Shown: piece after piece, positions 13,261 to 54,600 of the stretch
How the letters are laid out: each line of letters opens with the position of its first letter
Numbering within the stretch: the first letter of the stretch is position 1
IMG/VR virus record: IMGVR_UViG_3300042377_000298
Span: 1 to 61,042 of that record
Direction: 5' to 3' (one strand)
Length of the DNA: 61,042 nt
From: a virus
The notes under the pieces: generated by a model
The model's input: the letters and a program-made list of their open reading frames with translations, nothing else
The model's database searches: none
Told to the model about the DNA's origin: nothing
Position numbers and translations under genes: made by a program

Positions 13261-16200
13261 ATGTCTGAAATTTCTCCTATTAATACTGAAAATGATAAAT
13301 TACCTATTGATGATCAGCCTAATAATGCAACAAATATAACTCCAGTTATTGCTCCTTTAGATCAATCAATAAAACAAGAAGCTTCCACAGCCAAGGCTCC
13401 TAAAGTTCCAGATGTAGAAAAAACAAATGCTCGCCGCAAGACTTATGAGTTTTTGGATATCGACCCAATTGATTCATTAAATGTTTTCAATAAAGTAAAT
13501 AAAAATGAATGGAGTTCTGCTGATCCTTCTCGTCGAGATGAAATTGCTTCTGAGAGATTAAATGAGCTAAATCAAAACTTAATAGCAGCAGACCCTAGCA
13601 CCCCATCTGGGCGTGTAGAGATTCCATCATTGCGCAAAATAATTGTAGACGGTAAAGAGACAGAAGAGTTAGTAAATGTTCCTGCTAGCGACAGTTCTGG
13701 AAGGCTTAGCAAGGCTGGTCAGGATTACTACAATCAATCATCTTCTTTACTTTCATCAGCAGCAAAAGATGAGAAAGGTGGACTACGCATAAATCCACTT
13801 ACTGGGAAAACGGTATCGAAAATTGGATCTCGTTTATTAACGCCATATGCAAAAGATGAAATTGATCCTGAGAGATTTTCTGTAAATGAAGAAGGAATTA
13901 AATATGAAAAATTAAATCCAGAAGATGTTGTTGATTACGCGCATGTTCGCAGAATTTATCAGGCAAGAGCGAAACAAGCTGGCATATCCTACAAAAAATT
14001 AATTACTGAATTAATAAGTCCAGGCGAGTCATTGGATCAACTTGATGTAAATAGGCGCATTGTATCTGATATTGGATACAATGCGGGAACCTATGAGGAT
14101 GGATCAAGTGGTGAATTTGTTAATGATCTAGAGCTGCTTGCACAAATTAAAAATTCAAAAATTGGTTCTGAAAACAAAGAAGAAAATGAAAAGTTACAGG
14201 CAATACTTACCAAAAGTATTGCAAGACTTAAAGCCGAAGAAGGCATGGGTTCCAAATTGGTTGATCTTCATGATGGTCAACCAATTTTCAATATGGAGAA
14301 AATAAAAAATATTAATGATATTGAACAAGCATTAGAACAACTTCCAATTTCTAAAACAGAAAAACAATCACTTAAATTAAACTTCAAGACAAATTTTGAA
14401 TCCCAAGCTGTTGAGTTAATTAGAAAACTAGATGTTGGGGATCAGATGACTGATCTTTTCAGGAATAATGATGGACTTGAAAAACTTGCTGATTACATAG
14501 ATCCGGAAACACGTAAAAAATTAGATATTCCTGATTTCCGTGATTTTAGCTCGTTTGAATCATTTACAAATTCTGGGCTATCTGCATATGATTGGCTAAA
14601 ACAAAATTCTGATTTATACGATACTAATATTATATCTTCCAGCATAGAAAAAATTCTTCTTGGAACGCTTGACTCTTTTGACTCTACTAGAGTTGCTGTT
14701 TTAAGTCTTGGAGCTGGAATTGCTCAAGCAGGCATGTCTGTATTGCCAAATACCATAAGCGAAGGACTTAAAGGTAGAGAGTTGCTAGAAGATGCACGGC
14801 TAGGTTTAGCTGAAGGGAAAGCTTTTTTTTCAGAAATGAAAAAAGGTAGAGCTGCCCAGCTTGGGAAATGGGATTTAATAGGCAACGAAGATAGTTATAT
14901 TAATATTACAAGTGATGATATTTTTGACGCTGCTGGAAATATTATTGAAATGTATCTTACGCTAGGTACTTCAAGCGCTGTAAAGGGTCTTGGACTAATT
15001 GGATCAAGAACATTGACCGTTGCAGCATCCAAAGAGTTAGGGAAAAAAGCTGCTGTGGAGTCAACAAAAATGGCAGCAAAATTGCAAGGCGCAGATTCTT
15101 TATTGTTAAGGAACATTGGCAAGATTTCTAAATCTGGAATTGAGTTTAAAGAAGGTGCTAAAGCTTTATGGCAAAACGCAGAAGCATTGAATACTGCGGC
15201 AAATGTATTAAAGACAAGTTTGTATGGCTCATTTACGTCCGCTGGTGGCGGTATCGGAGAAGGTTATTCACGCGCTATACAAGCAGGCAAGAGTGAAGAC
15301 GAAGCTCTTATTGAAGCTACCTCTACTGGGCTTAGCAATGGCCTTGCTACTTTTGTTGCAATGACTGTAATGAACGGGTTGTTTCCTAGTCTAGGTGTCG
15401 AGAAAGGGCTTATTAAAGCCTCTGAGGGAGTTGGATTACGCACATCAATCAGAAACACTATTGCTAGAAACAAATCTTCCGATTCTATTTCAAAGGGCCT
15501 TAGGGAATTAGTTAAAGATAAAGCAACATTAAAGGGAGTTCCAAAAGGTGTTGCAGATGCAATGCGTGGCATTTCTAAATCGCAAGGAATTGTTGGCTTT
15601 GGCAAATCTGTTACTTTTGGAAGCATTGCAGAAGGCATTGAAGAATGGGGTGATGAAATGCTTGCTCCCGTTATTAATGCTTATCTATTAAAAAATGAAT
15701 CTGCTCGTAAACAATTAGAAACAGATGGGTATTGGCTTGGAGCACTTAAGGCTGGAGTTATTGGCATGTTGATGGGTGGAGCAACATCTTTAGGAACAAA
15801 AACTTCTGAAGGTAAAGCAAAGGCTTTTGAACTTGCTAATCAACGTATGGATTCTTATATTGAAAGAGTTCTACCTGCATATAAAGGAATGCAAGACGAG
15901 CTTGTATCTGTAAAGTCTACAACTGCCGAGGGAGCCGAAGCAATTGGCACATTACGCAATATTTTAGAAACTGGCACTACTGACCAAAAGGTTCAGGCGT
16001 TGACAGAGCTTGGCAAACAAAAAATTCAACAATTATCTTTTGATGCGAATACCAAACAAGAAGGTGTTTTAAAAACTCCATCTACTCCTCAAGATTCTGA
16101 CACGAGCAAAAATCCAGATGCAAAAGGTGACCCAATAACTCCAAAAGAAAAAACTACTACTGTAATTGAAAAAAAGAAATTTGATATTCCAAGTAAAATA

Positions 16201-19200
16201 ACAAATAAACAAAATAATGTAAATGTCCCAGTGCAAGAAGAAAGCAATCTTGCTTCATTTGCTTACAATCAAGCGCATGGTCTAGAGATTAAAGATACGA
16301 ATATGCCTAGTCCAAAACTCGAAGTAAGTGGCTCTAGCGTATTCCAAAAAGTTGGTGGCAATATCACTGTTACAAGTTATAACATTAATGGCAATGAAGC
16401 CGATCTTCATAGTTTTGAAGATACAAATGGAGATACTATTTTTACAAATAAAACCAATTTAGGGAAATTATTACTCAAGTCGCATGGCCAAGGAGTTGTT
16501 CTTAAGAATTTATCAAAAGTTTCAAATACTGATAACGTTGCTTCTTTAATAAAATCCTCAGAAAGCAATGTTGATAAAAATCAAACACCAGAAAAAGATA
16601 AAGCTTCTGATCCTGAAGTCACAGAAAAAGATGATTCAAATAAATCAACTTCTGAGCAAGATCCTTTGTCAACAGATACAGCTCCTATTGAAGCAGAGGA
16701 GAAAACTGAAGATATTTACGATGAGAATAAACAAGTTGTTGGAGAAAATAAATTAAAACCAGCACTTAAAAAAGTTTACGACAAGTATCGAAATTATTTT
16801 AATAGAAAGAAAATTGGTATTATTATTGTAACCAATGCTAGTGAGCTTGAAAACATACCCGAATTTAAAAACTTTAAAAAAACCTCAATGGGATTTGCAG
16901 GGACAATTAATATTGGGAAATCAAATCAACGCGATGTTATTGTTATTATAACAGATAATATTGAATCCCAGAAAGCAAGCACACCAGAGGCATCTATTGA
17001 AACAATTTTTGAAGATATTCTTGAGCACGAAAATGCTCATGTCATTACAAAACGATTTAATAGAACAAAAAAAGGCAATAAGCTCAGGAAGGATTTTGAA
17101 GAAGATTTATTCAACAATCAGAAACTTAATGAAGCAATGGATGAAGACTATCCAAGTTTTTCAAAACAAAGTAATGATACCAAGTTTTTTGAATTTGTTA
17201 GAACATTTGTTTCTGGAAAACTAACTAATAGAACTTTGTCTGCGATGATGAGCATCAGCCCATCAATGAAGAAATGGATAGCTGGATTTATTAAGTTTGC
17301 AAAAAAAGAACTAAAAAACTACAGAGGAGCTAAGACTTATTTATCTGCATTTGAAAAGTTTTACATTCAAGAAATTAAGGATGACGCTGCGTTATTCAAG
17401 TATTCTCCATCATCCACTGAAGCATTTAAGAATTTTATTACCAATCTTATATCAAAGGTTTCCCCAACCAAAGCTCGCAAACAAGGAAAGCTTTTAACAA
17501 CAAAAGAAATTGACTTTAGTAATGTTGATAGATATGCAGATGCTTTTACTGATTTTCTTAGAACTGGAATTACAGATTTAACATCTCCTAATGATTTAGT
17601 ATCTAAACTAGTCGATATTCTTAATGGATTTTCTGAAGAATCAATTGGATTAGGGCCAGAATCTAAAAAAGAAATTTTCAATAAAGTAATTGAAGATTGG
17701 AGAAATAACGAAACAAACACAGATATTCTTAATGCATTGTTGGATGCCTCTAATAAAATTGGATCAGTCGATAACGCTCCTCACATTTCTGACGAGTCTA
17801 CTCCTGCTTCAGAGATGGTTCTTAAAGCTACTGAAGAAAGACTAGCATACAACCAGTATACGCGCATTAGAAAGACAGTTGCAGACACTCTTGTAGTTTT
17901 GGTCAAGAACGATACAACCGCCACCCAAAAGGCTGTAACAGAGATTGACAAGCCTTCTGACACTCAAGGAAATTCTGCCAGTAATGCGTATATCTTAGGG
18001 AGGATTGATCAAGCAACTGGTGAAATTATTGATCTTGGATTTGAGGTAGGAGACGTTGTAAGCGTAGTCAATTCAAGCGGCGATGTTATACAACATTTAG
18101 TTTACGTTAAATCGGAAATCTTCATTGCGCCTAATGGACAGAAAGAAGCTAGGCATGAGTTTCTTTCTGGAGTTGTTTCAGAAAATGGCAAACTAAGTTC
18201 TTTTGGGATTGGTTTGCAAACAATGTTTTCTGACAAGTTTCGGAAAGACTTTGAAGAAAGTGGGCTTGTTGATGATATGTTTGCTGTTGAAAGTGGCAAT
18301 CTGAAACTTGATAATGTTGATAAATTATTGCAATTTGTTTTTGAATCACTCACTAATAAGGCAATTAATTCCGAAGGCAAAAATATTAACTCAATTGAAA
18401 TTGCTGGAAAGAGCTACACATTTAATGATTTATTTTTATTTGATATTACAGGAAAGACTAGTGATGCCAATGCATCTCCATTTTATTACAAAGATGGCAA
18501 AATTGTAGTAAACATTGATGCGTTAAGAACTGAGTTTTCTTTTATTAATGACAGTCTTTTAAAGGACTCTGATAACAAAAAAACTATTGGATTGCTTATT
18601 GCTCAAGCGGTTCGCACCGCAATTGACGAAGAGTTGCTTCACCACATTACAACACTGACATTTGGTGAAGATGAACTTGTTAGCCTATATAACGATTTAG
18701 CAGAAAATGATAGATTTAGTGGCTTGTTAAATCAAATTGCCAATGCGCAAGGTATTTACGTATCTAGCGAACAATTTACAGATCAGCAGCGTTATGTTAT
18801 TGCTACAGAGTTCCTTGCATTTATTAATCAAAAGTCTTTTGATGGCGCAACATATGCAGATCAATACAATCAATTACTCAAGTCTTACGCCAGTGCCAAG
18901 CCAGATGGGAAAGCTCTTGCTACTGCATCTTTATATGGAAAACGATTTAAAGATATTCTCATAGCTAGATCCGCTACATCACTAATGGCTCCGCGTCTTA
19001 TTGACATGGTTAACAAACTATCAGTATTGAAAAGCGAAGTCATGCCAAAGCAATCTAGCTCCAACATGGCCAATGTATACGCAAACTTCAATGCAGATGC
19101 ATACACTAAATCCAGAGGTCGTATGCAGCAATCTATTGATAATGCATTCTTAAAACAATATTCCGCTGTAAATGACTTGCGCACTTACCTTGCTGAGAGT

Positions 19201-22200
19201 CGATTAATGGCAAATCAAATATTAGATTTTGACTTTAACAATAACACTGTTTCTTTATCTCCAGAATTTAGGGCTGTATATCAAAACAAAATTACAGCCG
19301 AAGAATTGGCTGAACTAGATGATTACTTTAGCCGACTAAACAATGATTCTGTAGTAAGAGAGTTTCTTGTTACGCTTTCAGCCGCAAGAGCAAGTCTTGA
19401 TGCAATTACTGAGCAAGTTGACGTGAACAATAATGATCCTGATTTGGGTAATAGATTTCAACAAGCAACTAAAAATTACAATAATCTTGTATTGGACTAT
19501 GCTGATATTTTCCTAAACAAAAACCTTACAAAAGTTGATGAGTTTGGTAGATCCTTTGCAGTAATTGGTTCCGAGCTTGGAGGAGAATCATTTCCTGTTT
19601 ATTCAGAAACATCTGATAACTCTGTCACAGTCAAATTTAATGCAGATACCAGCAATGTCACTATATTCACATACGATGTTAATTTGTTTGGTTATGAAAA
19701 TCAAAATCCAAGTAACGCAATTAATGACCGATATGAACAAAGAAAAAAATTTGCAGATGTTAACAATGATTTGGAAAAAGCAAAAACAGAAACTCTTTGG
19801 TTTTATGGCTACAGGGGTAGATACACAAGTTCCGATCGCCAAAACTTTCCCAACAAGGTTTCGACAATTGAAGGCAATGCGGCGTTTCTTGGAGAAGAGG
19901 AATTCAACTTCTTTTATATTTCAAGAATTAATGGAGAATCATTTAGATTAAATAACAACCCATATAGTTACACTGACTTTAGGAAAATGATGGGTTTTAA
20001 TCCCATTGATTTCAAGATCAATAGTGATGGGGAAAAAGTCTTCTTAAACTTCAATGAAGTTATTAATAAATTTATTATTTCTGACGAAGAACTTGAAACT
20101 GGTGTTTCAAATACAAGCACTGGAGAATCTTACACGGTTACAATTCGACGCATGTCCGAAAGCAAATTGCTTAAGGATTCGGAACCAGAGAGACAAAGAA
20201 TTGTTCTAGGATCTGCTTTGCAAAGGTTTTTTGGCGATACTAAAAATATTTTAACTTGGTTCAATAAACTTGAAGAGATTATTGGTTATGAACGCAGTAG
20301 CGGTGATATCAATGTTATTAATGAAATATCTGGAAGAGAAACATTTGCTAGCAAGTTTGCCAAGCAGCTTAAGTATCGGATGTTTAACAATAGGTTAATT
20401 CATGGCAATGGTATTCATGAAAAAATAGATGGTGAAACTGAAAGTGATCAATCTCTCTATGGAATGATTAAGGAGCTTCAGTCTGCTTATTATGCATTAT
20501 TTGCCAGCATTACTCCACCAAGCGATGTCAAGCTTTTCAAATCAGTTGGCAAAAACGAATTAAGTAATGCAGAAGTTAGCAACCTACTTGCTAAATTGCC
20601 TGTGTTTCTAGAGGCAATTGATTCACTGAATCAAGATATTGGATTGGCTCGAAAAGCATATACACGTTTCACTAGCAGTTATCTTCTCAATACAATTAAG
20701 GGCGACATTCGATTGATTCAAGAACAAAACACTGAGGGTCTTAGAGCTAATGAAGAACTATTAAGGGCGATCCAGTATAGTTTTTATGATATTCAGGCAA
20801 TGGAGGATGTTGAGTTTTTAATGGACTACAGGAATAATGGTGGAAGAAACGGAATAAATGGCATTATTGCGCTTAACCTTCTTGATCAACTTGCCAACAT
20901 TCCTAGTTCTGCGCAAAATGAATATTATGTCAGCAATACTCCATCTAAAAACGTTGCTTATTTGCTACAAACATACGCTATGTATCTTGAAAATGGAGTT
21001 AATCCAAGAACAAAAGATGCTGATGGTAAGTCAACCTATCCAACTGACAACTTAGTATTTAATGTTATTCAGAAATATGGAGACAAGGCTAACGAGAATG
21101 AAGATGATTTCAATGCGGATATTGACACTAAACCAAGCGACACTGCCGAAACCATTGGCATGTCTGGTGTCTCTCCAGTAACTGGTAGAGATGAGGCAAG
21201 TCAGGAGGCTATTGATTCAGCACGCAGAGAGTCAATGCACGAAGAGGTCAAGAGAATGAAGTCTTGGACTTTCCACGCTGCTATCTCTATTTTCCAAAGA
21301 ATTGTTGGCAATGACAATGATATAACTATTGATGGAATTGATACTTCAAAAACTAAATTGTTCTTTTACTTATTTGCTAAAATTCAAAATCGTCCAAGCA
21401 TGGAAAATGATTTCAATGAAGAGGACTTTAGCCAACTAAAGAAAGATCATCAAGACTTAAGCAACTTAATGCTTGATCAATTAAAAGCTCTTTCAAATCA
21501 CTACAACATGACAAACTCACCTAACACTGGGTTTGAACAGATCGCAAACAAAGTGCGTAAATCTAGTTATACGCATCCAATGGAATTCCTTGCTGATGTT
21601 GTTGAGGTGATTGGTGCAATGGAAAGAGATTATCTTGATGAGGTTACTGATGCTGGGAAAACTCTTGCTGAATATTCACAAAGAGAGCTTAAAAAGGAAA
21701 TAGCTAAATCTGAATCCGCAGTTAGCGTAGATAAAGGCGCTACAAGTTTTGCTGATACTAGTAAATTGCAAGAAAAACTTGAGTCATTGATTGAAGGATT
21801 AAATCTTGAATTAGATAGTCCATCTGTGTCTCCATCAATTATAGCACTGTATAAAACTAAAATTTCTGAGATTGAATCTGAGATTGAGTCTGCTACACAA
21901 GGTGCTGCTCAACAGGTTCAGGGCCAATCTGCTGTTAAGCGTTACATTAAAAAAGACACAACAGAGTTGCGCCAAAAACTGGACTTTCTTAATAGCCAGC
22001 TTGATGCATTTAAAACTTCCTTATTAGAAATAAGAGCGGACAACCCAAAGAATCCAAGCATTCCGGGTGTAATGAAAGAAATATCAAATAAGCAAGCTGA
22101 GGTAAAGAGAGCTACTTACGAACTTAAAAACTTAACATCAGAAAATGAAAAAGCTGATGCGCAAATAAAAACCCCAATTGAAAAACTTGAAAATTATTAT

Positions 22201-25200
22201 CAAGCACTTAGATCAAAGTTGTATGCGGCGCAGCAAAAAGCAACTACTGATGATCTTGGAAATGCAGTTTCTGAAACAACCAAAAGAGACATTGGTAATG
22301 AAGGTCAATTTTTGCGTAGGCCTCGAGTTGGAGAAACAGAAAATATTGCAGTTAACGAACTTGCTGCTGATGCGCAAATTGAAAGCATAATGAATCGAGT
22401 TGGCTTGATGATTTCAAAACTACAGAATTTACAAGAAAAACCAAAGTCAATGCTTAGCTATAACCAAGAGCAAGCACAGTTGGTATTGGACTCCATGCAG
22501 GAAGATTCAGACAAGAATAAATTAAGTGCAGGAACTATTTTTTACGCTAGAACATTTAAATTCAAATCTAATGAATCATTAATTAATGATAGCTTGTTCA
22601 TGAAGTTTCCTTTATTTAGCGCATTAATTCAATCAATGCCTAACCTGATTGTGTATCAACCAGATACAAACTATAATGGGAAAACAAATAATCTTCCTGA
22701 TGGTGCTGGCCTTGTGCAATTGTCAAATGGAGACAATATATTGTATATCACAAATCCTGATCAATTAAATAATAGCAAACAAGCTCAGATTCTAGAGTCT
22801 TTAATTGTCGCACAAATTAAATCAGAATCGGACAATGGCGCTCGCCCTTCTGTTTTACAGCAGACAATTGATCAAATGGCTGAAGTAGTGCAAACTCAAG
22901 CTAAGCACGCAATCAACATGACCCCAGACAGGATTAATGTAATGATGGCAAGAGCTGAACTTGCGATTAACAAACTTACAACAATTGATAATAAAGTTAA
23001 AAAAGCGATAATTAGTCGTTACAAAAAGTCACTAGAGGCAAATGCTTACGACTCAATCAAGTTGCTAACTAATCGGACAGCTAGGCGTTCATACATTGAG
23101 GATCGCGTATCTAATCGCACGGAAAACGTAAGTCGTTTCTTTGACCAATTAGTAACTGCTGATCGTGCAAATGGGAAGACATCAACAATTGACAATATTC
23201 AAATGATTGTTGATATGTTTACTAATCCAGATTCATATAGGTTATTAAGCACATTCAAATCTCCTGATTTAGATTTTAATGCATATTCACCATTGCCTCA
23301 ATTTGATGCTTTGCTTAATAAGGCTTTGTCAATTTTTGCAATTCCCGAAGTTCGAAGTAGTGCAATTCATGAAATTCAAATACAAAAAAGACTTCAGTTA
23401 ATAGATGAAGCAAACGAAGGAATTGAAGAAGACAATGTTGAGACTGATCCAAATTTAATTTACGAAGCTATTGCTGAAAATTACAACGAAGAAAATCGCA
23501 CTCGAAAAAAACTAAGCAAACCTGAGATTTTAAATATCATCAAGCAAATGTCGGATAGTCAAATTAAGGGCATTATTGACCCTCTCATCATGGAGAGGTA
23601 TTTCTTGACCAATCGCTCACCTGAAGCTGCAAAAGACCTTGTTGAGGCATTTAAGCAGAACACTGCGCAACCTGACTTCCTATACAGATATGTTGGATCA
23701 CAATTAATGAAAGCAATGGAGCCTACATTAATTAACGCAGATCCTTCAATTAAGGAAACATCTATTTTTGATAATGAGTTTCCAACTAAATCACTTAGTC
23801 GTGAAGCAAGAGCATATGACGTTTTGTTTGCAACCAATAAGCCAATCTTACTTAGCACTATGATGGACCCAGCCATTGGAACTAATAATACTTTTTCCAA
23901 TGTTGAGGCGAGAACGCCAACTGGAGATATTACTAATTTCTATTATGGCCACAGCCCAATGACTGAAACTTATAGGGTCAATCGCAAAAAAGTTCTTCTT
24001 GGGATGTTACTTGGCAAAACTGAAACTGGCAAAAGTTTAGTTGATAAGCTATTTGATGATCAAGAAGAATTAGCTATGGAAGTTTTTTCCGTCACTTCCT
24101 CTGTAAGCCTTGATAAGTTTTCTGGCATTTTAGGATTAATGATTAAGGAACTACCCGCATTAATAGGCGATGATGTAGTAGCTAGGGCAGAGCAAATCGT
24201 TGATAGAATTGCTGTCTTAGCGCGCAACAACAAAGAAGAAACCAAGAAACGTATTGCTGAATTAAGCAATCAATTAGAGGTGATTAAACAACAAGGACGA
24301 GAATTCTTATTAGAGAAACTTATTGAGCGAAATAAAGAAGCTGCTAAAGTCGCAACTTCACAACTTCTTTTTACTCCTGATGAAAACGAAGAAAACATTG
24401 GTATTTATGACTCTCGATCCACACTGGAATCTATTGCAAATCGTATTTCTAATTATCTCATTTCTGAAAAACTTGGTTTGAATCGCAACAGTTATAACTT
24501 AGCTAAAAAACTAGAAACAAATGCAAATAGCTATTTGTTAAAATATAAAAATGCTATTTCAAGAATATCTAATTATGATCAACAAATTGCAACTTTATTT
24601 GATGGAGACTTTTCTTCCGACTATACTAGAAATAACACCAAGTATCGTTTTCTTGTTGATGGACGCAATAATTTAATTGATAAGGCTGAAATCTATAAAT
24701 CTGAGTATGTAAAGCTTGCGGCAATGGATTTAATGGGAGAGTTAATTAATCCGTCTCATTTCTTTGCAAGTCCCAATTCAGATGTGCAAGGTTATATCCG
24801 TAGTCGCCTGAATGAAATAGGCAATTATGGTAAGATTAAATACAGAAGTGTTTCACCATTTGATGAAGATGCTACCTCATCTGCTGTTTTCAGGGGAATT
24901 TCTGGTAGTCTTGTTACTAGAGGACGCAAAACAAATTTAATGCTTGGCATTAATAAAGCTACAAGGCCTGAATTTGCATCTGAATTGCTTGATGGAATTA
25001 CCAAGAACGAAGCAAAAGAAATGTTTGCTTCACTAGGTCCAGATTTGCTGAAAAATTTTGCAAACAATAAAGGATACCTACAAGACAACTTCAAGTCTGA
25101 AATGGTGCGCGAATTCTTTAGCCGACTAAAACAAGAAGGAACAATATCCAAGTTTGCTAAGGAGATGTCGCAAAAAATAGACGTTCTCAAATACAATGAG

Positions 25201-28200
25201 AGCCAAATCAAGGAAATGGTTATCAAGTCTCTTTCTGAAAACAAATCATTATTAAAACTTATTAATGATGAGTTCATTGTTACTGATTTAGAATTAGCTG
25301 AATCTGATGTTGAGACTGGAAAGAAAATTCTTGATGGAAACATTGAAGGAAAAATTGAAGAAATCACATCTGAAATTGAAAGATTAACAAAAATTAGAAA
25401 TACAACTCAAGGTCACTCTACGCAATTATCCAAAACAGGATCTCCAAAAATTGGTAACGTGACGCTATTTGAAATACCAGCTTACAAATATCCAGATGAA
25501 AATGATGCAAGAAAGCGCATGAACATGGGCATGCCAGCAAGCAGAAAAGTCAATCTCAGATTGACAAGAAGCCTTAACGAGTCTGACTTAAGCACTGATC
25601 AAATAGCGCGCTTTGATGCTACGACTAGGGATGCTCGTATTATTAACGAAGCTATGAACATCTTTCTTGAAGAAGAGGGCGAGGTTGCTTACAAGGCGCT
25701 ATCCGAAGAAGTTGATTTGTATGGCGAAGGTTTCGACGTTAAGCAAAACATTCAAAACGTAATTGAATTAATACAACTCAAAAACAATCTTTCTGAAAAA
25801 ACAAATACTAAATTTGAATTAATGATTCAGGAAATGTCAAAGATTGACACAATTCTCAATGAAGCAGATCAGCCAGCAATTGAGCTATATGGTATGACGT
25901 TGCGTGACATGATCAAGTTGGGCTTGTCTCCAGCAACTTTAATTAATGAGAAGGGCAAAAAAGAAGTTATTAATATTGCAGACAAGTCTTCCACTCAGTC
26001 TGAAATCAATAGAATTAAACAAACTGCGTTATTTATTAAAAATGAAGCTGGGTTAGCGGTATTTATGCCGACAGATGGAAAACTTGTCGACCAGCCGGGA
26101 AGAAGTCATTTTCTTTATAGTCGATCAGCGCTGAATCATTTGCAAAGTTTCAAGAAAATCACTAAACAAAAAGGAAAAGCAGAGAGTTTGTTGAAAGACG
26201 CTATCTTTAGAGCCTCACGTGGCGCTACTGGATTTGACACATTCCTTAGAACACAAAGCCATGAAAATGTAGACTTTGATGCAAGCAAGCCAGTCAGTTC
26301 AGAACTTGCTGTTGCTACTGGTGTAAATCCAGCAATGACAAAAGGAGAGTTTGTTAAGACTGCTAAAAGACTCTTTAATGAATACTTCTTAAAAGAAATA
26401 GGCAACTACGTGTTTTCTTCATTTGCTAAAGGTATTGGGATTTATAGCACGATCAAAAAAACTGATCGCATGAATGATCAAGAAATTCAAGAAGCATTTG
26501 ATTCTGTTTACAGCTTTGCATCTGATGTAGCAAATGATGCTATATTGAAATCTTCTGGTTTTTCTGTTTTAACAAAAGCAAAACAGGACTACACAAATAA
26601 TGAAAAAGCGAAAATTGTTAAATCTGCTTACGATATTGCAATTAATGAGAACAAATTTTTAGCTCCAAATTCACATGCATCAAACAATATTTTGCTTAAT
26701 GAATCTATGTTTGAAGACATTATTACAATGTTGGAAAGTGATAAGTTCGCCTTGCTTAATAAAAACAAATCAGTAAGCGCATATGAAGTTGCTGCAATTA
26801 ATGCAATAGCAAGTGTATTTAGTAACGAAATTAATACGGCAAATAGCACTTCTGGCAAATTCTTTAGCTTTGATACAGCTATTACGCGTCTTGATTTACG
26901 TCAAAACTATTCAAGACTTTATTCGTTGCTTTACTCACAAGATATTTTCACTGATCTTCTTAGTGGTGTTGTTGATTCAGAGAAAAGAGACAGCAATGAT
27001 TTATTTACTCATTCAAATGCTTTAGTGAAACAAAAGTTCGCAAGAAGCTTTGGTTCTTATCAAAGGGCATTAAGTTTGCAAGGATTGATTGAGCAAGGTA
27101 TTAATGGAAATTCTGGAAGAAATAAATACTCAGCAAAATATGAGGAGTATCAAGACAGGATTGGAAAAGCAGCAAGTCAAATTGGAAATGATTTTGACCT
27201 AGGCTCACGTGCTTATATGGTGGCTGTGACAAAAGGAATTGTTGAAGCCAATAATAGAGATGGGGGAACTGATTTGGACTTGGCTTTGAAATTGCATTAT
27301 TTTGCTTCTGCTTACAACAATGGGATAAGAGATCATCGCCAATTGCTTAGAGACATTAAGGATTTCAAGAAAAATGGCAACATGTTTTCTCGCGCAGTTA
27401 AACTCTTTGATACTATTGGAAGAAAGCAATCAAGAGAAGACATGAACGTCAGCCTTATTAATAATTTAATTGGGGCGGAAATTGAATTAATTGCGCGAAG
27501 AGATCCAAAATCATTAACAAGACAAGAAGTTCAGTCCTATATCAATCAAATTGAAAATATTCTTTATGATGGATTTGACTCCAAAACAATTAGTGGAATG
27601 AACAATTATGCGAATGCATTATTGGAAGAATTTACTGGGATTTACGAAGGCCATAGAATTGCAAATGCTTTTGCTTCTGAAGAAACATTGCGTGGAATTG
27701 AAGAGGTTGTTGATCCTAAAATAAGCAAAACTGCAAAAACATTAAAAAATCCATATAGCGTTATTCCATTGCGTTTTGGGCATGTGAAAAATCCATTAAG
27801 TAAAAAAGATCCAAGTATTGGCAATGGATCTCCAACTATTGATAGCTTTGTGAACTTTGAGCAAAGTTTAATGAACTATAAGGGACGAACAATCTATGAC
27901 TTGCAAAAAGAAAGCTTTGTTCGCGTTTTACGTCCTTTAGACATGAACCCATTTACTGCTCCAGATCAAATTGCCAATGATGCAATTTATAGAATGTATT
28001 TGAATCCATCATATACTGTTATTCGCAAAATGCTTGGAGAGTATGGAGTTGATGTCAATGGAATTCCAAAAACAGAAAATGGACATTTGGTTGGAGCTAT
28101 AAAAGCACTTTACAATATAAGCAATGATCAAAGAATTGAAAAAATTGGTCAATATAATCAAATATCTGCTTACATTATAGATAAAATTAACACTGAAATT

Positions 28201-29766
28201 AAAAACGATATGCCAATGGATTTGGCTGATAGTTTGCTTGCTGATGCACTTCGCATTTCTAATGTTCATTTAATGGTGAAAACCTTGGCGAGTGTAACGC
28301 AAATCTTGACACAAGGAATTTTACCAGCATTAGCCAAATACCTTAATGTTAAAATTGGTAATTTTGCAGGACTGCATCAAAAAGATTCTGCAAGATTAAC
28401 AGAGGCTTACGCTTTGGCATTAAAAGATTATTTTAAGTCTAGCAGCGAGGGAGATGGCCGAAACTTTGTTAAAGAGAATAGCACTAATAGTTACAAGTGG
28501 AGAGCTGAAGGGGCTAATAAAAGAGATTCGCAAGTCAGCATGACCAAGTATGCAAGCCAAAATCATCTCACTTATTTAACAAGAGTTTTTGGAGCTTCAT
28601 TCAATAAACTTGGAGAAGGATTGCTGGATGCTACAATTGGAAAACCAGAAAGAGCACTGGTGCAAGCTATTTACATGTTTGAATTATTTAATGAACTGCA
28701 AAAAGACATGGGGCAAAACGCGCCAAAAACAATTGCAGAAATGATCAAAATGAATCCAGATCAATTTAGCACCTATGCTAAAACAAAAGCTGATACAATG
28801 GTCACTGACTTTATGGGCATTGGTGATAGAGCTAAAAAAGCTAGAATTTACAACCTACCTAGAAATAGGGCGGTAGAGACATTGTTATTGAACTATGTGA
28901 CTAGATATGGGAATCACGCGCTTACTGTTGGCCCGAATTTAATGGTCAACATGGATCAATTGTATAAGCAATTAAGCGGAACATACAGCGACAAGCAAAT
29001 GCGCAATGATGCACTTGAAAACGTTATTGGAACTGTTTTGCAAACATTGTTATTTAGGTTTGGTCAGGTCCAAGTGATGTTGCCAAACTTGATTTATTTG
29101 TTTTACGGCATTACTGGATTGCTTGGTGGTGATAAAGACGAGGATGAGGAAGATGCTACGCAAAAAACGCTGGATTTATTGCGTAGATTGGATGTTTATG
29201 GAGAGCCTGAACTTGAAGAGGATACATTTATGACAATACTTAGCAGAAGATTGAGAACTTATTTGCTACCGCAGCAATTTGCTGCTACTAAAAAAGAAAA
29301 TAGAACTGCTAAATTATTTGGATGGCAATTCAAACATAGTCCAATTCTTGAATCTAATTTAGGAGCGCTTAGAAAATCTGCATTAGATACACTTCCTGTT
29401 ATTTCTTATCTAAAGGCTGGGTCTGCTTTAAGCGTCCCACTGGGCAACAATTTTATTGATCTTACTTCTGAAATTTCAATGATGGGATTAAGAGGCGATA
29501 ATGTTGATTTCTCTGATATTGGTCGCATTGCATTTAAAACGGAAAATATAGCATCTGCTCCAGTTTTGTCTTTGCTTGAAAGCTATAAAGGAGTAATGAA
29601 CACTGCTTCTGTTCCGTTAAATTACTTTTTACCAAAAGAAGGAATGGAAGGTATTTCTGCTACAGAAATGCTTGAAGGAATGTTAGTATCACCTCTTGGT
29701 ACAAGAGAATATCGCCCAACATATTATGAGCGAATTAAAAATAAAGGTGGATGGGGGGACTATTAA
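13261..29766 (+). CDS. giant 5501-residue virion-type protein with zinc-peptidase motif
   Basis: One uninterrupted frame of 16.5 kb. Residues 1-60 are acidic and disordered. About 480-860 holds several hydrophobic, glycine-rich helices (VAVLSLGAGIAQAG, LSNGLATFVAMTVMNG, GVIGMLMGGATSLG) as in ejected proteins that form membrane channels. About 920-1150 is a charged linker. At 1256-1260 lies H-E-N-A-H, a zincin HExxH, with E1311 (in KFFEFVRTF) as likely third ligand. A related but degenerate D-E-E-L-L-H-H lies at 1789-1795. The rest is mainly helical, with coiled coils (about 2830-3000) and a hydrophobic segment near 5260-5290 followed by DKDEDEEDA. Such giants occur in phages as multidomain polyvalent or ejection proteins; no RNA polymerase motif set was seen. 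Probably delivered into the host with the DNA. Confidence 0.75.
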   Translation: MSEISPINTENDKLPIDDQPNNATNITPVIAPLDQSIKQEASTAKAPKVPDVEKTNARRKTYEFLDIDPIDSLNVFNKVNKNEWSSADPSRRDEIASERLNELNQNLIAADPSTPSGRVEIPSLRKIIVDGKETEELVNVPASDSSGRLSKAGQDYYNQSSSLLSSAAKDEKGGLRINPLTGKTVSKIGSRLLTPYAKDEIDPERFSVNEEGIKYEKLNPEDVVDYAHVRRIYQARAKQAGISYKKLITELISPGESLDQLDVNRRIVSDIGYNAGTYEDGSSGEFVNDLELLAQIKNSKIGSENKEENEKLQAILTKSIARLKAEEGMGSKLVDLHDGQPIFNMEKIKNINDIEQALEQLPISKTEKQSLKLNFKTNFESQAVELIRKLDVGDQMTDLFRNNDGLEKLADYIDPETRKKLDIPDFRDFSSFESFTNSGLSAYDWLKQNSDLYDTNIISSSIEKILLGTLDSFDSTRVAVLSLGAGIAQAGMSVLPNTISEGLKGRELLEDARLGLAEGKAFFSEMKKGRAAQLGKWDLIGNEDSYINITSDDIFDAAGNIIEMYLTLGTSSAVKGLGLIGSRTLTVAASKELGKKAAVESTKMAAKLQGADSLLLRNIGKISKSGIEFKEGAKALWQNAEALNTAANVLKTSLYGSFTSAGGGIGEGYSRAIQAGKSEDEALIEATSTGLSNGLATFVAMTVMNGLFPSLGVEKGLIKASEGVGLRTSIRNTIARNKSSDSISKGLRELVKDKATLKGVPKGVADAMRGISKSQGIVGFGKSVTFGSIAEGIEEWGDEMLAPVINAYLLKNESARKQLETDGYWLGALKAGVIGMLMGGATSLGTKTSEGKAKAFELANQRMDSYIERVLPAYKGMQDELVSVKSTTAEGAEAIGTLRNILETGTTDQKVQALTELGKQKIQQLSFDANTKQEGVLKTPSTPQDSDTSKNPDAKGDPITPKEKTTTVIEKKKFDIPSKITNKQNNVNVPVQEESNLASFAYNQAHGLEIKDTNMPSPKLEVSGSSVFQKVGGNITVTSYNINGNEADLHSFEDTNGDTIFTNKTNLGKLLLKSHGQGVVLKNLSKVSNTDNVASLIKSSESNVDKNQTPEKDKASDPEVTEKDDSNKSTSEQDPLSTDTAPIEAEEKTEDIYDENKQVVGENKLKPALKKVYDKYRNYFNRKKIGIIIVTNASELENIPEFKNFKKTSMGFAGTINIGKSNQRDVIVIITDNIESQKASTPEASIETIFEDILEHENAHVITKRFNRTKKGNKLRKDFEEDLFNNQKLNEAMDEDYPSFSKQSNDTKFFEFVRTFVSGKLTNRTLSAMMSISPSMKKWIAGFIKFAKKELKNYRGAKTYLSAFEKFYIQEIKDDAALFKYSPSSTEAFKNFITNLISKVSPTKARKQGKLLTTKEIDFSNVDRYADAFTDFLRTGITDLTSPNDLVSKLVDILNGFSEESIGLGPESKKEIFNKVIEDWRNNETNTDILNALLDASNKIGSVDNAPHISDESTPASEMVLKATEERLAYNQYTRIRKTVADTLVVLVKNDTTATQKAVTEIDKPSDTQGNSASNAYILGRIDQATGEIIDLGFEVGDVVSVVNSSGDVIQHLVYVKSEIFIAPNGQKEARHEFLSGVVSENGKLSSFGIGLQTMFSDKFRKDFEESGLVDDMFAVESGNLKLDNVDKLLQFVFESLTNKAINSEGKNINSIEIAGKSYTFNDLFLFDITGKTSDANASPFYYKDGKIVVNIDALRTEFSFINDSLLKDSDNKKTIGLLIAQAVRTAIDEELLHHITTLTFGEDELVSLYNDLAENDRFSGLLNQIANAQGIYVSSEQFTDQQRYVIATEFLAFINQKSFDGATYADQYNQLLKSYASAKPDGKALATASLYGKRFKDILIARSATSLMAPRLIDMVNKLSVLKSEVMPKQSSSNMANVYANFNADAYTKSRGRMQQSIDNAFLKQYSAVNDLRTYLAESRLMANQILDFDFNNNTVSLSPEFRAVYQNKITAEELAELDDYFSRLNNDSVVREFLVTLSAARASLDAITEQVDVNNNDPDLGNRFQQATKNYNNLVLDYADIFLNKNLTKVDEFGRSFAVIGSELGGESFPVYSETSDNSVTVKFNADTSNVTIFTYDVNLFGYENQNPSNAINDRYEQRKKFADVNNDLEKAKTETLWFYGYRGRYTSSDRQNFPNKVSTIEGNAAFLGEEEFNFFYISRINGESFRLNNNPYSYTDFRKMMGFNPIDFKINSDGEKVFLNFNEVINKFIISDEELETGVSNTSTGESYTVTIRRMSESKLLKDSEPERQRIVLGSALQRFFGDTKNILTWFNKLEEIIGYERSSGDINVINEISGRETFASKFAKQLKYRMFNNRLIHGNGIHEKIDGETESDQSLYGMIKELQSAYYALFASITPPSDVKLFKSVGKNELSNAEVSNLLAKLPVFLEAIDSLNQDIGLARKAYTRFTSSYLLNTIKGDIRLIQEQNTEGLRANEELLRAIQYSFYDIQAMEDVEFLMDYRNNGGRNGINGIIALNLLDQLANIPSSAQNEYYVSNTPSKNVAYLLQTYAMYLENGVNPRTKDADGKSTYPTDNLVFNVIQKYGDKANENEDDFNADIDTKPSDTAETIGMSGVSPVTGRDEASQEAIDSARRESMHEEVKRMKSWTFHAAISIFQRIVGNDNDITIDGIDTSKTKLFFYLFAKIQNRPSMENDFNEEDFSQLKKDHQDLSNLMLDQLKALSNHYNMTNSPNTGFEQIANKVRKSSYTHPMEFLADVVEVIGAMERDYLDEVTDAGKTLAEYSQRELKKEIAKSESAVSVDKGATSFADTSKLQEKLESLIEGLNLELDSPSVSPSIIALYKTKISEIESEIESATQGAAQQVQGQSAVKRYIKKDTTELRQKLDFLNSQLDAFKTSLLEIRADNPKNPSIPGVMKEISNKQAEVKRATYELKNLTSENEKADAQIKTPIEKLENYYQALRSKLYAAQQKATTDDLGNAVSETTKRDIGNEGQFLRRPRVGETENIAVNELAADAQIESIMNRVGLMISKLQNLQEKPKSMLSYNQEQAQLVLDSMQEDSDKNKLSAGTIFYARTFKFKSNESLINDSLFMKFPLFSALIQSMPNLIVYQPDTNYNGKTNNLPDGAGLVQLSNGDNILYITNPDQLNNSKQAQILESLIVAQIKSESDNGARPSVLQQTIDQMAEVVQTQAKHAINMTPDRINVMMARAELAINKLTTIDNKVKKAIISRYKKSLEANAYDSIKLLTNRTARRSYIEDRVSNRTENVSRFFDQLVTADRANGKTSTIDNIQMIVDMFTNPDSYRLLSTFKSPDLDFNAYSPLPQFDALLNKALSIFAIPEVRSSAIHEIQIQKRLQLIDEANEGIEEDNVETDPNLIYEAIAENYNEENRTRKKLSKPEILNIIKQMSDSQIKGIIDPLIMERYFLTNRSPEAAKDLVEAFKQNTAQPDFLYRYVGSQLMKAMEPTLINADPSIKETSIFDNEFPTKSLSREARAYDVLFATNKPILLSTMMDPAIGTNNTFSNVEARTPTGDITNFYYGHSPMTETYRVNRKKVLLGMLLGKTETGKSLVDKLFDDQEELAMEVFSVTSSVSLDKFSGILGLMIKELPALIGDDVVARAEQIVDRIAVLARNNKEETKKRIAELSNQLEVIKQQGREFLLEKLIERNKEAAKVATSQLLFTPDENEENIGIYDSRSTLESIANRISNYLISEKLGLNRNSYNLAKKLETNANSYLLKYKNAISRISNYDQQIATLFDGDFSSDYTRNNTKYRFLVDGRNNLIDKAEIYKSEYVKLAAMDLMGELINPSHFFASPNSDVQGYIRSRLNEIGNYGKIKYRSVSPFDEDATSSAVFRGISGSLVTRGRKTNLMLGINKATRPEFASELLDGITKNEAKEMFASLGPDLLKNFANNKGYLQDNFKSEMVREFFSRLKQEGTISKFAKEMSQKIDVLKYNESQIKEMVIKSLSENKSLLKLINDEFIVTDLELAESDVETGKKILDGNIEGKIEEITSEIERLTKIRNTTQGHSTQLSKTGSPKIGNVTLFEIPAYKYPDENDARKRMNMGMPASRKVNLRLTRSLNESDLSTDQIARFDATTRDARIINEAMNIFLEEEGEVAYKALSEEVDLYGEGFDVKQNIQNVIELIQLKNNLSEKTNTKFELMIQEMSKIDTILNEADQPAIELYGMTLRDMIKLGLSPATLINEKGKKEVINIADKSSTQSEINRIKQTALFIKNEAGLAVFMPTDGKLVDQPGRSHFLYSRSALNHLQSFKKITKQKGKAESLLKDAIFRASRGATGFDTFLRTQSHENVDFDASKPVSSELAVATGVNPAMTKGEFVKTAKRLFNEYFLKEIGNYVFSSFAKGIGIYSTIKKTDRMNDQEIQEAFDSVYSFASDVANDAILKSSGFSVLTKAKQDYTNNEKAKIVKSAYDIAINENKFLAPNSHASNNILLNESMFEDIITMLESDKFALLNKNKSVSAYEVAAINAIASVFSNEINTANSTSGKFFSFDTAITRLDLRQNYSRLYSLLYSQDIFTDLLSGVVDSEKRDSNDLFTHSNALVKQKFARSFGSYQRALSLQGLIEQGINGNSGRNKYSAKYEEYQDRIGKAASQIGNDFDLGSRAYMVAVTKGIVEANNRDGGTDLDLALKLHYFASAYNNGIRDHRQLLRDIKDFKKNGNMFSRAVKLFDTIGRKQSREDMNVSLINNLIGAEIELIARRDPKSLTRQEVQSYINQIENILYDGFDSKTISGMNNYANALLEEFTGIYEGHRIANAFASEETLRGIEEVVDPKISKTAKTLKNPYSVIPLRFGHVKNPLSKKDPSIGNGSPTIDSFVNFEQSLMNYKGRTIYDLQKESFVRVLRPLDMNPFTAPDQIANDAIYRMYLNPSYTVIRKMLGEYGVDVNGIPKTENGHLVGAIKALYNISNDQRIEKIGQYNQISAYIIDKINTEIKNDMPMDLADSLLADALRISNVHLMVKTLASVTQILTQGILPALAKYLNVKIGNFAGLHQKDSARLTEAYALALKDYFKSSSEGDGRNFVKENSTNSYKWRAEGANKRDSQVSMTKYASQNHLTYLTRVFGASFNKLGEGLLDATIGKPERALVQAIYMFELFNELQKDMGQNAPKTIAEMIKMNPDQFSTYAKTKADTMVTDFMGIGDRAKKARIYNLPRNRAVETLLLNYVTRYGNHALTVGPNLMVNMDQLYKQLSGTYSDKQMRNDALENVIGTVLQTLLFRFGQVQVMLPNLIYLFYGITGLLGGDKDEDEEDATQKTLDLLRRLDVYGEPELEEDTFMTILSRRLRTYLLPQQFAATKKENRTAKLFGWQFKHSPILESNLGALRKSALDTLPVISYLKAGSALSVPLGNNFIDLTSEISMMGLRGDNVDFSDIGRIAFKTENIASAPVLSLLESYKGVMNTASVPLNYFLPKEGMEGISATEMLEGMLVSPLGTREYRPTYYERIKNKGGWGDY

Positions 29767-51906: not shown

Positions 51907-52542
51907 CCAAGTTTAGCGTAGCATTGATTATGGCTATTAAGCTGATATGCTCAATAAAGGCAAAGAAACAGCTAAAATACGCCTAAACAGAGCACACAAT
52001 GGCACTTTCTAGCCCACTTTGACCACTGACTAGGGTGGAGACAGCGGAAACGTGTTACCCCCTGCTTAAATCGGCTTGTAGGAGCACTGTGGGCATGGAT
52101 GTTTAGATGGGATTGCCCTAGGTATTTGCCTGAATGTGGTGATGATGTGTGGTTTATTGGGGGAATAGCAGTACAGATCAACCAAACACTGGTTTATTGC
52201 AGTAGCAAGGGATTTTGTGTTTACGCCCCGTGTGGAGACAAGTCTTGCTGTACTGTTGCCTTAGATTATTGTTGTTACATTGTATTCTTATTAATGAAGA
52301 CAAGTATCCTTACAACCTCCCTAGTGCGTTCCGAATGAAAAGCATTATCTACTCGGAACTTTCTACGTCCATTAAAGAACGACACCTTAGGAGTCAACCT
52401 CCTGCCAGCTTGTTTAGTCTCCCGCTGACACCCGTTAGCCGCTTTCCAGCTGTTCAGGTCTAGTTGAGAGTGTGGAAGATTCACGTCTTCTCGCGTAGCC
52501 CTCTCTTTTATACTGTGATCGGGGAGCGAACAGTGGGCAATG

Positions 52543-52634
52543 AAAAACCCGTCCGAGATACTACCTTCGAACGGGCTTTCCAACCATGAAACACAAGCAC
52601 GGAAATCTTTGTTATACGGTAGTATCGCAAGAAC
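52543..52634 (-). ncRNA. candidate short RNA with pseudoknot and terminator
   Basis: Minus strand, 5' to 3': GATACTACC (52626-52618), 42 nt, CCCGTTCGA (52575-52567), loop AGGTAGTATC, TCGGACGGG (52556-52548), TTTTT. The last hairpin is a 9-bp Rho-independent terminator, and its loop is fully complementary (9 bp) to the first segment, so pseudoknot or alternative pairing is built in. A promoter-like TTGACA-15-ATTAAT lies directly upstream. It may be a small RNA or an attenuator whose loop pairing changes termination. Confidence 0.5.
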
Positions 52635-52643
52635 GAGCAACGA

Positions 52644-52669
52644 TTAATGCATTAATAGTAACTTGTCAA
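52644..52669 (-). promoter_or_regulatory. promoter-like sequence for the 52.6-kb RNA
   Basis: Minus strand TTGACA (52669-52664), 15-nt spacer, ATTAAT (4 of 6 to TATAAT; 52648-52643), or TAATCG at 17 nt. The expected start near 52634 precedes the GATACTACC segment of the RNA. Confidence 0.5.
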
Positions 52670-52841
52670 CATTTATTTTCTTTGCCTGTTGCATTACCAC
52701 CAAGGGCACTATTAGTGACCTGTCTTTGCCTGCTGATCCTGTGCTGTTAGAGAATTGGATAAGTTAAGTTGTTCTCTGTAATGCGCTTTGCACCCAGACC
52801 TAAGCCCACAAGGTTGTTACGCCCTGTGAGCTACGGTCTGA

Positions 52842-53036
52842 TTACAACTCTACATTACGGAGAGGAACAGTCATGTCACCCCAGCGACTGAAGAGCCTGA
52901 AGAGTGTAGACTTCCTGTGTTGCGATGGAACTTTGAGCAATGTGATAGGCTCAGACTTAGGCTTACGCCCTTGTAGGTATTCCATTGCCGCCAACTGACC
53001 CACTGCACGCAGGTTTCTTTCTTGTTTATTATTCAT
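52842..53036 (-). CDS. small basic protein, unknown
   Basis: 64 residues; NNKQERNLRAVGQLAAMEYL helix, then LLKVPSQHRKSTLFRLFSRW, strongly basic. It would lie upstream of the 52.6-kb terminator. A 15-nt palindrome copy stands 77 nt before its ATG. Not recognised. Confidence 0.45.
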   Translation of the reverse strand: MNNKQERNLRAVGQLAAMEYLQGRKPKSEPITLLKVPSQHRKSTLFRLFSRWGDMTVPLRNVEL

Positions 53037-53112
53037 ATTCTTTATTCCTTAACCTCCTTGAACGGAAGGAGTAACCGAGTGTTGCCGTGTTGACACCACC
53101 ATTGCTGTCCAC

Positions 53113-53502: not shown

Positions 53503-53757
53503 TTATATTCTCACTCTGAAAGTTGCCAATTTTTCTGAGTGAACTACCCTTACTTCATTAGCTTTCGTATGTGGGAGCGCTTTGGAGCTAGTTGATATTT
53601 CGACCCCCCATGGAGTATTCTCCTGAACCTGCCACCTATACCCAAGGTGATCGATCCAGAATGCCCACTCTTCTACACTTAAGTGTTCAAGTGGCAGTGT
53701 TTGAGCATTAACAGAGTAGTCAAATCCAAGCAACTCCTTGATGTTTTCCGTAGTCAT
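53503..53757 (-). CDS. small protein, unknown
   Basis: 84 residues, with tryptophan-rich middle (VEEWAFWIDHLGYRWQVQEN; TPWGVEIS). No family recognised. The stretch 53758-53908 between this gene and the next carries no convincing gene on either strand. Confidence 0.5.
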   Translation of the reverse strand: MTTENIKELLGFDYSVNAQTLPLEHLSVEEWAFWIDHLGYRWQVQENTPWGVEISTSSKALPHTKANEVRVVHSEKLATFRVRI

Positions 53758-53908
53758 ATGTGTATATGCAACTGCATGTGCGCGGTGCAGAATCCAATCA
53801 CTGCACAGATAACCAACATCGCTGGTCAGGCGTTGCTCTCCCCATTAGAACTGAATAAGGGGCAGGAAATTCGTGCCAGTTTAGAGACATGGCTGGTCTC
53901 GATGGAGG

Positions 53909-54103
53909 CTACTCCCACATCTCTTTAGATGTGTAGTCCTCGCTTGCCCAATCAGGCACTGGCTCAAACTCGACTGCCTTAGCAGCCTCATAGCTACCAA
54001 GTTTGCCCAGTTCGGTTGCCGCCACTGAAGCAATCCGAAGATCGCCAATGGCAATTGCGTGTGCTTGGATGCAATGCCCAAGCTTTTGTAGTTCACTAGT
54101 CAT
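53909..54103 (-). CDS. small helical protein, unknown
   Basis: 64 residues, alanine-rich helices (TSELQKLGHCIQAHAIAIGD) and an acidic end (PDWASEDYTSKEMWE). The ATG at 54103 follows a hairpin-rich leader (54104-54271). Not recognised. Confidence 0.5.
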   Translation of the reverse strand: MTSELQKLGHCIQAHAIAIGDLRIASVAATELGKLGSYEAAKAVEFEPVPDWASEDYTSKEMWE

Positions 54104-54271
54104 ATTCGTGTATGGTTTGGTTCAAGCTGGCCTACCAACGTGGTAGGTTGCAGCGAGAGGAATATGACGCAACCCCCATCACCTTTCGGTGACAGGACGC
54201 TTTGGGCTTAATGTCTGTTTAACGTCGCCCAAACGACGGAGTAGTTTTAACGCCTTGCTCAGGGCGAAGTC
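54104..54271 (-). promoter_or_regulatory. hairpin-rich leader
   Basis: Minus strand shows CCTACCA-CGT-TGGTAGG (perfect 7 bp), GTTGC/GCAAC, TCACC-GAAA-GGTGA (GNRA loop, about 54167-54181) and GGGC/GCCC pairings within 168 bp, all before the ATG at 54103. The GNRA hairpin resembles the elements at 44.5 and 47.8 kb but lacks their flank. Leader RNA or small RNA. Confidence 0.45.
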
Positions 54272-54520
54272 TTACCAATTACGATCTATCAAGCAACGCT
54301 TAATGATCTCTGATATTGTCTCATCAATCTCATTGATTGCGTGATTGATGAAGCCTGAGCCTGAACCCATTCCTGCTCTCACGCTTCGGCAGTCAGCCTC
54401 GTGTCTTTCTTCAAACGGGAACGATCCTTTAGGTAGTAACGCTCTCAAGCCTTCCTTCCTTGCTTGTAGTTGATTGATCGCTAACGCGGCTGTCTCTGGT
54501 AGTTGTAGTGTAGTATTCAT
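54272..54520 (-). CDS. small protein, unknown
   Basis: 82 residues from ATG 54520; the in-frame ATG at 54565 would start with a Thr/His run made by a TG repeat. NTTLQLPETAALAINQLQAR helix, then a Gly/Ser stretch (AGMGSGSGFINHAINEIDET). Similar in tone to phage accessory proteins; not recognised. Confidence 0.5.
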   Translation of the reverse strand: MNTTLQLPETAALAINQLQARKEGLRALLPKGSFPFEERHEADCRSVRAGMGSGSGFINHAINEIDETISEIIKRCLIDRNW

Positions 54521-54600
54521 ATGTGTGTGTGTTGTGTGTGTAGTCTGAGGGGCGGCGGGTGTCACCTGACTCCCCTACTCCGCTGCATCGACTACACAGA
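54521..54600. other. TG microsatellite and closed hairpin
   Basis: A TGTG-rich run (54522-54540) is followed by GTGTAGTC (54538-54545) and GACTACAC (54590-54597), a perfect 8-bp stem enclosing GC-rich inner pairs (GGGG/CCCC). It lies between divergent genes, directly before TerL. No T-run follows; an operator or a packaging signal are possible. Confidence 0.4.

Follow-up and report, generated by a model that had tools for sequence, protein, structure and literature searches.

A candidate leader-like phage RNA with a 5' segment complementary to the loop of its own predicted terminator

The minus strand of a 61-kb virus record (61,042 nucleotides, analysed over its whole length and called the window here) carries a feature that may be a structured phage transcript of about 90 nt, resembling leader RNAs of Bacteroidota phages, with a 5' segment able to pair with the loop of the transcript's intrinsic terminator. 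We put the probability of this reading at about one half. For the class of RNAs that it resembles, the best reading of the sequences is that they are phage leader RNAs in which loop–loop pairing may set the strength of a terminator placed before replication genes. The complementarity, its conservation over differing sequences, the promoter and gene context and the insertion bearing the window copy are directly observed.

A preliminary description of the window listed TTGACA-15-ATTAAT, the segment GATACTACC, a gap of 42 nt and a 9-bp hairpin with a 9-nt loop complement, and all of these are present on the minus strand. The candidate weak promoter occupies 52642–52668, with TTGACA at 52668–52663 and ATTAAT at 52647–52642. 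Its reading as a sigma-70 promoter was not borne out, since the 15-nt spacer is off consensus and the site is not among the promoter-like sites that a promoter scan finds in the window, which are no commoner there than in shuffled sequences. An overlapping TTG-N20-TAATCGTTG reading approximates the Bacteroidota −33/−7 consensus TTTG/TANNTTTG (PMC6847099). The 5' hairpin-like segment UCUUGCGAUACUACCGUAUAACAAAGA (52606–52632) presents GAUACUACC in a weak fold of −3.6 kcal/mol and includes GATACTACC (52618–52626), the pairing partner of the terminator loop. The terminator hairpin CCCGTTCGA[AGGTAGTATC]TCGGACGGG (52548–52575), with nine base pairs including one G–T pair, begins 42 nt after GATACTACC and ends at a TTTTT tract (52543–52547). 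Nine of the ten bases of its tight loop, AGGTAGTATC, form the exact complement of GATACTACC; this side of the pairing, GGTAGTATC (52557–52565), is a 9-mer that also occurs in the viral contigs L039 and L057 and in the L041 group. The first terminator scan of the window allowed loops of up to 8 nt and missed the hairpin because longer loops were excluded.

A 9-nt complement to the loop arises in 5 of 20,000 dinucleotide shuffles of the upstream 110 nt (0.025%; P ~0.0003), and a complement of at least 8 nt in 0.11% of 20,000 such shuffles. A simple scan of the window finds 24 terminator-like sites, and the motif is the only one with a 9-nt upstream complement. Correction for these 24 sites raises the chance expectation to about 1%, which, together with the poor promoter, would suit an ordinary terminator with a coincidental complement upstream. 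This explanation is very improbable and is largely refuted by comparison with other phages, as the same pairing sequence and hairpin recur in unrelated phages within a structurally conserved RNA family.

From the 5' hairpin through the U-tract, the sequence folds better than its shuffles (z −3.0). The fold containing the terminator has about −31 kcal/mol versus −16.5 kcal/mol for a truncated RNA folded into the long-range stem instead, and the terminator is predicted by the folding model to win thermodynamically over that stem. By established pseudoknot geometry, a full 9-bp loop pairing combined with the full 9-bp stem would be sterically strained here because one loop base only remains as linker, and partial pairing or competition is more likely.

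The motif lies on an insertion of about 388 bp (~52290–52677, minus strand, with putative exact breakpoints). Motif and insertion are missing from all distinct relatives spanning the locus (L020, L012, L017, L018, L024, L025, L014 and L027), each of which keeps both flanks; relatives that share the gene at 51.4 kb with 86–98% identity and the gene at 54.7 kb with 92–99% identity lack the motif. L020, the nearest distinct relative, shows ~96% identity on both sides and lacks ~390 bp corresponding to window ~52290–52677. Elsewhere the insertion is found only in contigs identical over the region (L009, L010 and overlapping loci), which represent the same virus. It occurs just once in its own record and in those related records that were searched; no second element was found, and blastn against phage and plasmid collections gave nothing significant. 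On the minus strand the whole insertion has a folding z of −3.7, or −3.0 with flanks, mainly due to the 5' module. The rest of the insertion (52290–52540, minus strand) is moderately structured, a 257-nt stretch having a z of about −2.1, and contains stable hairpins (CAGCU/AGCUG with CCUG/CAGG, and GUUCCGA/UCGGAAC); this part matches no known family in Rfam. Readings of the insertion as a group I or group II intron, tmRNA, tRNA or ribozyme find no support from Rfam or ARAGORN. A 121-aa open reading frame over the motif (52275–52640) was rejected as a gene: it ends outside the insertion, has no Pfam match and has relatives in the same virus only.

Read by eye, the two ends of the insertion, AATAAATGTTGACAAGT at the start and ACTTGTCTTCATTAAT at the end, are inverted-repeat-like at 13 of 16 positions, and AAGAA stands on each side (52678–52682 and 52285–52289), possibly as a target duplication. 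The complementarity in the window could be a by-product of a mobile MITE-like insertion, in which an imperfect DNA inverted repeat provides sites for transposition or protein binding and an outward terminator insulates, with no loop pairing in vivo. The inverted-repeat-like ends and possible 5-bp duplication are consistent with this, as are the single copy, a palindrome at 52642–52655 and the absence of a gene downstream. It is nevertheless improbable, because the L039 RNA shares a run of 20 bases, CGTTCGAAGGTAGTATCTCG, as well as the partner flanks CGATACTACCG, and can form the same loop pairing with them, and because the complement has the low shuffle probability given above (~0.0003).

L039 is an unrelated viral contig, reading like a Bacteroidota phage, in which a pattern search with the hairpin sequence matched an intergenic region. 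In addition to the 20 identical bases shared with the window, it carries GATACTACC some 60 nt farther downstream, where a strong terminator presents it in its loop. The 20-base core of the window hairpin corresponds to the 5' hairpin of L039, and CGATACTACCG to its terminator-loop segment; judged from these sequences, coincidence is an unlikely cause of the likeness. A scan of viral contigs for GGTAGTATC-N45-75-GATACTACC returned 25 stretches, among which a clear family, R1, comprises one close group (L041, L044, L049, L051, L052, L055, L060 and L061), L057 and L039. The 5' hairpin of R1 is UUCAG[AGGUAGUAUC]CUGAA or UUCGA[AGGUAGUAUC]UCGAA, usually with a small second hairpin, and its terminator is ACCCUAUG...GAUACUACC...CAUAGGGU or GCCCGUU...GAUACUACC...AACGGGC; L039 and L057 also have a promoter-like TATATTTG. 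The stems covary, with eight pairs changed on both sides and 98.6% of cells paired over four distinct sequences, versus 30–46% in six slid controls of the alignment. The nine loop–loop pairs are invariant in R1, which is evidence neither way because the pattern search selected those pairs. Other pattern matches were rejected: L042, L043, L045–L048, L050, L053, L054, L056, L058, L059 and L062–L064 lack the flanking structure of the family, L040 has the shared 16-mer with no partner and is attributed to chance, and the seven loci of the first pattern scan, L001–L007, amount to plain long hairpins or hits in coding sequence, likewise attributed to chance. That first scan was blind to the window's own spacing of 52 because its gaps were limited to 50.

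Polaribacter phage Danklef_1 was reached through the initiator protein of L057; at the corresponding place it has another RNA, differing in sequence but built to the same plan: TATATTTG, the hairpin GUUAC[GUGGUGGAACAAG]GUAGC and UUCCACC in the terminator loop. The architecture of the class consists of a TATATTTG promoter, a 5'-terminal hairpin and a terminator with a loop complementary to the hairpin loop. A strict scan (TAnnTTTG, a hairpin within 12 nt, a terminator within 60 nt and complementarity of at least 7 nt) gave Flavobacterium phage 11b (pairing sequence CGGGCAGG), a second copy in Polaribacter phage Freya_1 (L073 2535–2617; CCGCCAAG), Cellulophaga phage phi19:1 (GTACGAC) and Flavobacterium phage FCL-2 (CATCCAC), in addition to the GGTGGAA of the Polaribacter phages Danklef and Freya. 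The scan was modelled on the first examples, and phi19:1 and FCL-2, obtained later, are independent tests of it. The pairing sequence varies by lineage (GGTAGTATC in R1 and the five just given) with complementarity kept, and TATATTTG stands 0–6 nt upstream of the hairpin in Danklef/Freya, 11b, the second Freya copy, phi19:1 and FCL-2. Since Freya_1 has a second RNA with CCGCCAAG, two codes can coexist in a single phage. Among 385 kb of reference sequence from Flavobacteriia phages not chosen by loop sequence, five distinct loci combine TATATTTG with at least four G/C in the pairing, and none does so in 52.8 Mb of dinucleotide shuffles. Transcription in Flavobacterium starts 5 nt after the G of TANNTTTG (PMC6847099), and most hairpins of the class start at, or a few bases from, the +1 predicted in this way. 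No convincing member was found in Colly_1 (first 50 kb), P2559S, P12024S, 6H, phi10:1, phi14:2 (partial) or Riemerella phages, three of which have similar initiator genes; one pattern searched in genome contigs gave no match. Rfam has nothing for any class member tested, and no description of the class was found in open papers. On these sequences, the class looks like an undescribed RNA switch.

In five lineages the genes downstream of the RNA match replication initiation, DnaD-like helicase loader or primosomal families: phrog_428 in FCL-2 (E 5e-32), phrog_2514 in Danklef, phrog_9327 in phi19:1, phrog_18020 in L057 and, for phage 11b, a weak primosomal match with DUF6291, which is also found in L052. 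In L039 an unclassified gene comes next and then DnaB; in L039, L041 and L052 alike the downstream gene stands immediately before a DnaB-type helicase gene. All class loci but one are placed directly ahead of replication-initiator genes, with a small open reading frame intervening in several, the exception being the second Freya copy, which precedes a metal-dependent hydrolase gene. The following start codon lies ~10–40 nt past the U-tract in most members, and no other promoter is seen there.

These arrangements suggest how the RNA might work. RNA polymerase would start at TATATTTG and make a hairpin at the extreme 5' end, then a terminator with a loop complementary to the loop of that hairpin, the replication-initiation gene following shortly past the U-tract. 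The 5' loop could pair with the strand of the terminator loop as it exits from the polymerase, thereby altering the folding of the terminator. Its partner may be in the same nascent RNA or, in trans, an already terminated copy, as a terminated RNA would contain the two loops and could thereby target further nascent copies. Pairing would then shift the frequency of read-through into the replication genes and provide feedback on phage replication. The leading alternative to such a switch is a structural RNA with no effect in cis, a free-standing small phage RNA acting in trans on other RNAs, in which the loop–loop fold joins and protects the ends and genome compactness accounts for the placement ahead of replication genes. 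That the RNA has its own predicted promoter and terminator, that the 5' hairpin begins at the predicted start site and that neither the window copy nor the second Freya copy precedes a replication gene agree with this alternative. It is less probable than a leader, though to be taken seriously, as the short distance to the next gene with no intervening promoter in sight, and the identity of that gene as a replication-initiation gene in five diverse lineages, argue against it.

Set against the leader class, the window copy is an outlier. It has the class order of 5' segment, spacer, terminator loop and U-tract and uses the GGTAGTATC/GATACTACC pair of R1, with the paired segments exchanged between the 5' hairpin and the terminator relative to R1. 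Its terminator-loop complementarity, nine of ten loop bases, exceeds the 7 nt used to define the class. Its 5' hairpin is interrupted and weak, where the class has at least 5 bp with the pairing segment in the loop; the TATATTTG/TAnnTTTG promoter before the 5' hairpin is absent from the window, in which the strict scan finds no member; and no replication-initiation gene, nor any other minus-strand gene start, follows the U-tract. A covariance model of R1 scores window 52529–52574 at 17.6 bits (E 0.23), versus 116–135 bits for the family loci, which are the sequences used to build the model or near-copies of them. Because of the swapped loops, the missing TATATTTG, the weak 5' hairpin, the lack of a downstream gene and the R1 score, the window copy is not filed as a member, although by its design it would work like the class. 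The preliminary description had proposed a compact small RNA or attenuator with pairing between loop and 5' end. This proposal gains support from the same arrangement in unrelated phages, with compensatory differences in the pairing sequence, and comparison of loop and 5' segment reveals no loss of complementarity in R1 or the wider class; attenuation by the window copy itself is unsupported because no minus-strand gene starts downstream of its terminator. The module, with its segments swapped, would have been brought in by the ~388-bp insertion and, with no gene behind it there, would serve as a solo terminator or as a free small RNA.

The window virus has a large leftward gene block, and its genes from 54.7 kb run rightward and, going by their position and length, resemble those for terminase, portal and scaffold; the terminase-like and portal-like genes have no significant Pfam or PHROG match. 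Shine-Dalgarno sequences are scarce as in Bacteroidota phages (value 0.14, versus 0.03–0.16 in those phages and 0.46 in lambda), whereas adenine at −3 is unlike Bacteroidota phages, and TAnnTTTG is not enriched in the window. A Rfam search of the window gave nothing at the gathering threshold near the motif, the only match being a Pistol ribozyme 1.5 kb away (54168–54238, minus strand, 61.6 bits), which is 96–99% identical in L015, L016 and L018. The segment 53754–53899, with little or no assigned open reading frame, is 95–97% identical in L018, L020, L024 and L025, the neighbouring genes being ~80% identical in most of these. A repeat of ~23 nt occurs at 53746–53768, 54092–54114 and 54509–54531 (and at 53019–53038), near start codons of small minus-strand open reading frames, and a single open reading frame of 5501 aa spans 13261–29766 on the plus strand.

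Several known systems resemble the class in part. Phage P4 relies on RNA pairing and premature termination to stop its replication genes (PMC4825925). Like the class, the P4 CI RNA/seqA–seqC immunity system has a short phage RNA and self-complementary segments upstream of replication genes, with control by RNA pairing and premature termination, which for the class we infer. Unlike the class, in which a hairpin loop faces a terminator loop within ~110 nt, CI RNA is cut from a longer transcript and has separate target sites. Terminator riboswitches and attenuators share with the class a 5' leader, alternative pairing and a terminator just ahead of the regulated gene; the class differs in having no identified ligand pocket or competing antiterminator stem and in a pairing sequence free to vary between phages. 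The c4 RNA of P1 and P7 is a short phage RNA with self-complementary segments upstream of antirepressor genes, and Rfam contains a C4 antisense RNA family; neither this nor any other Rfam family matches the window motif or the class members tested. In ColE1 RNAI/RNAII and in pT181-type attenuation, kissing hairpin loops of 7–9 nt control replication. These are sense/antisense pairs, whereas in the class both loops lie within one transcript. Like a type III toxin–antitoxin RNA (ToxI), the window unit is compact and combines a candidate promoter, a possible pseudoknot and a predicted terminator; unlike ToxI, it has no tandem repeats and no toxin gene, and the window locus shows no repeat array, the overlapping 121-aa frame having no Pfam match.

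To our knowledge, little is known about the control of replication genes in Bacteroidota phages. A further, rather doubtful extension is that the class is an undescribed family of replication leaders of these phages, in which a 5' hairpin kisses the terminator loop with a lineage-specific code of the immunity or copy-number type, the window insertion carrying a loop-swapped GGTAGTATC version possibly acting in trans on that family. A compact leader with a changeable loop code would be easily tested with clean compensatory mutants. The class may represent RNA immunity of the P4 kind in another phylum, and, to judge by the window copy, an insertion may also serve as a vehicle for such a module.
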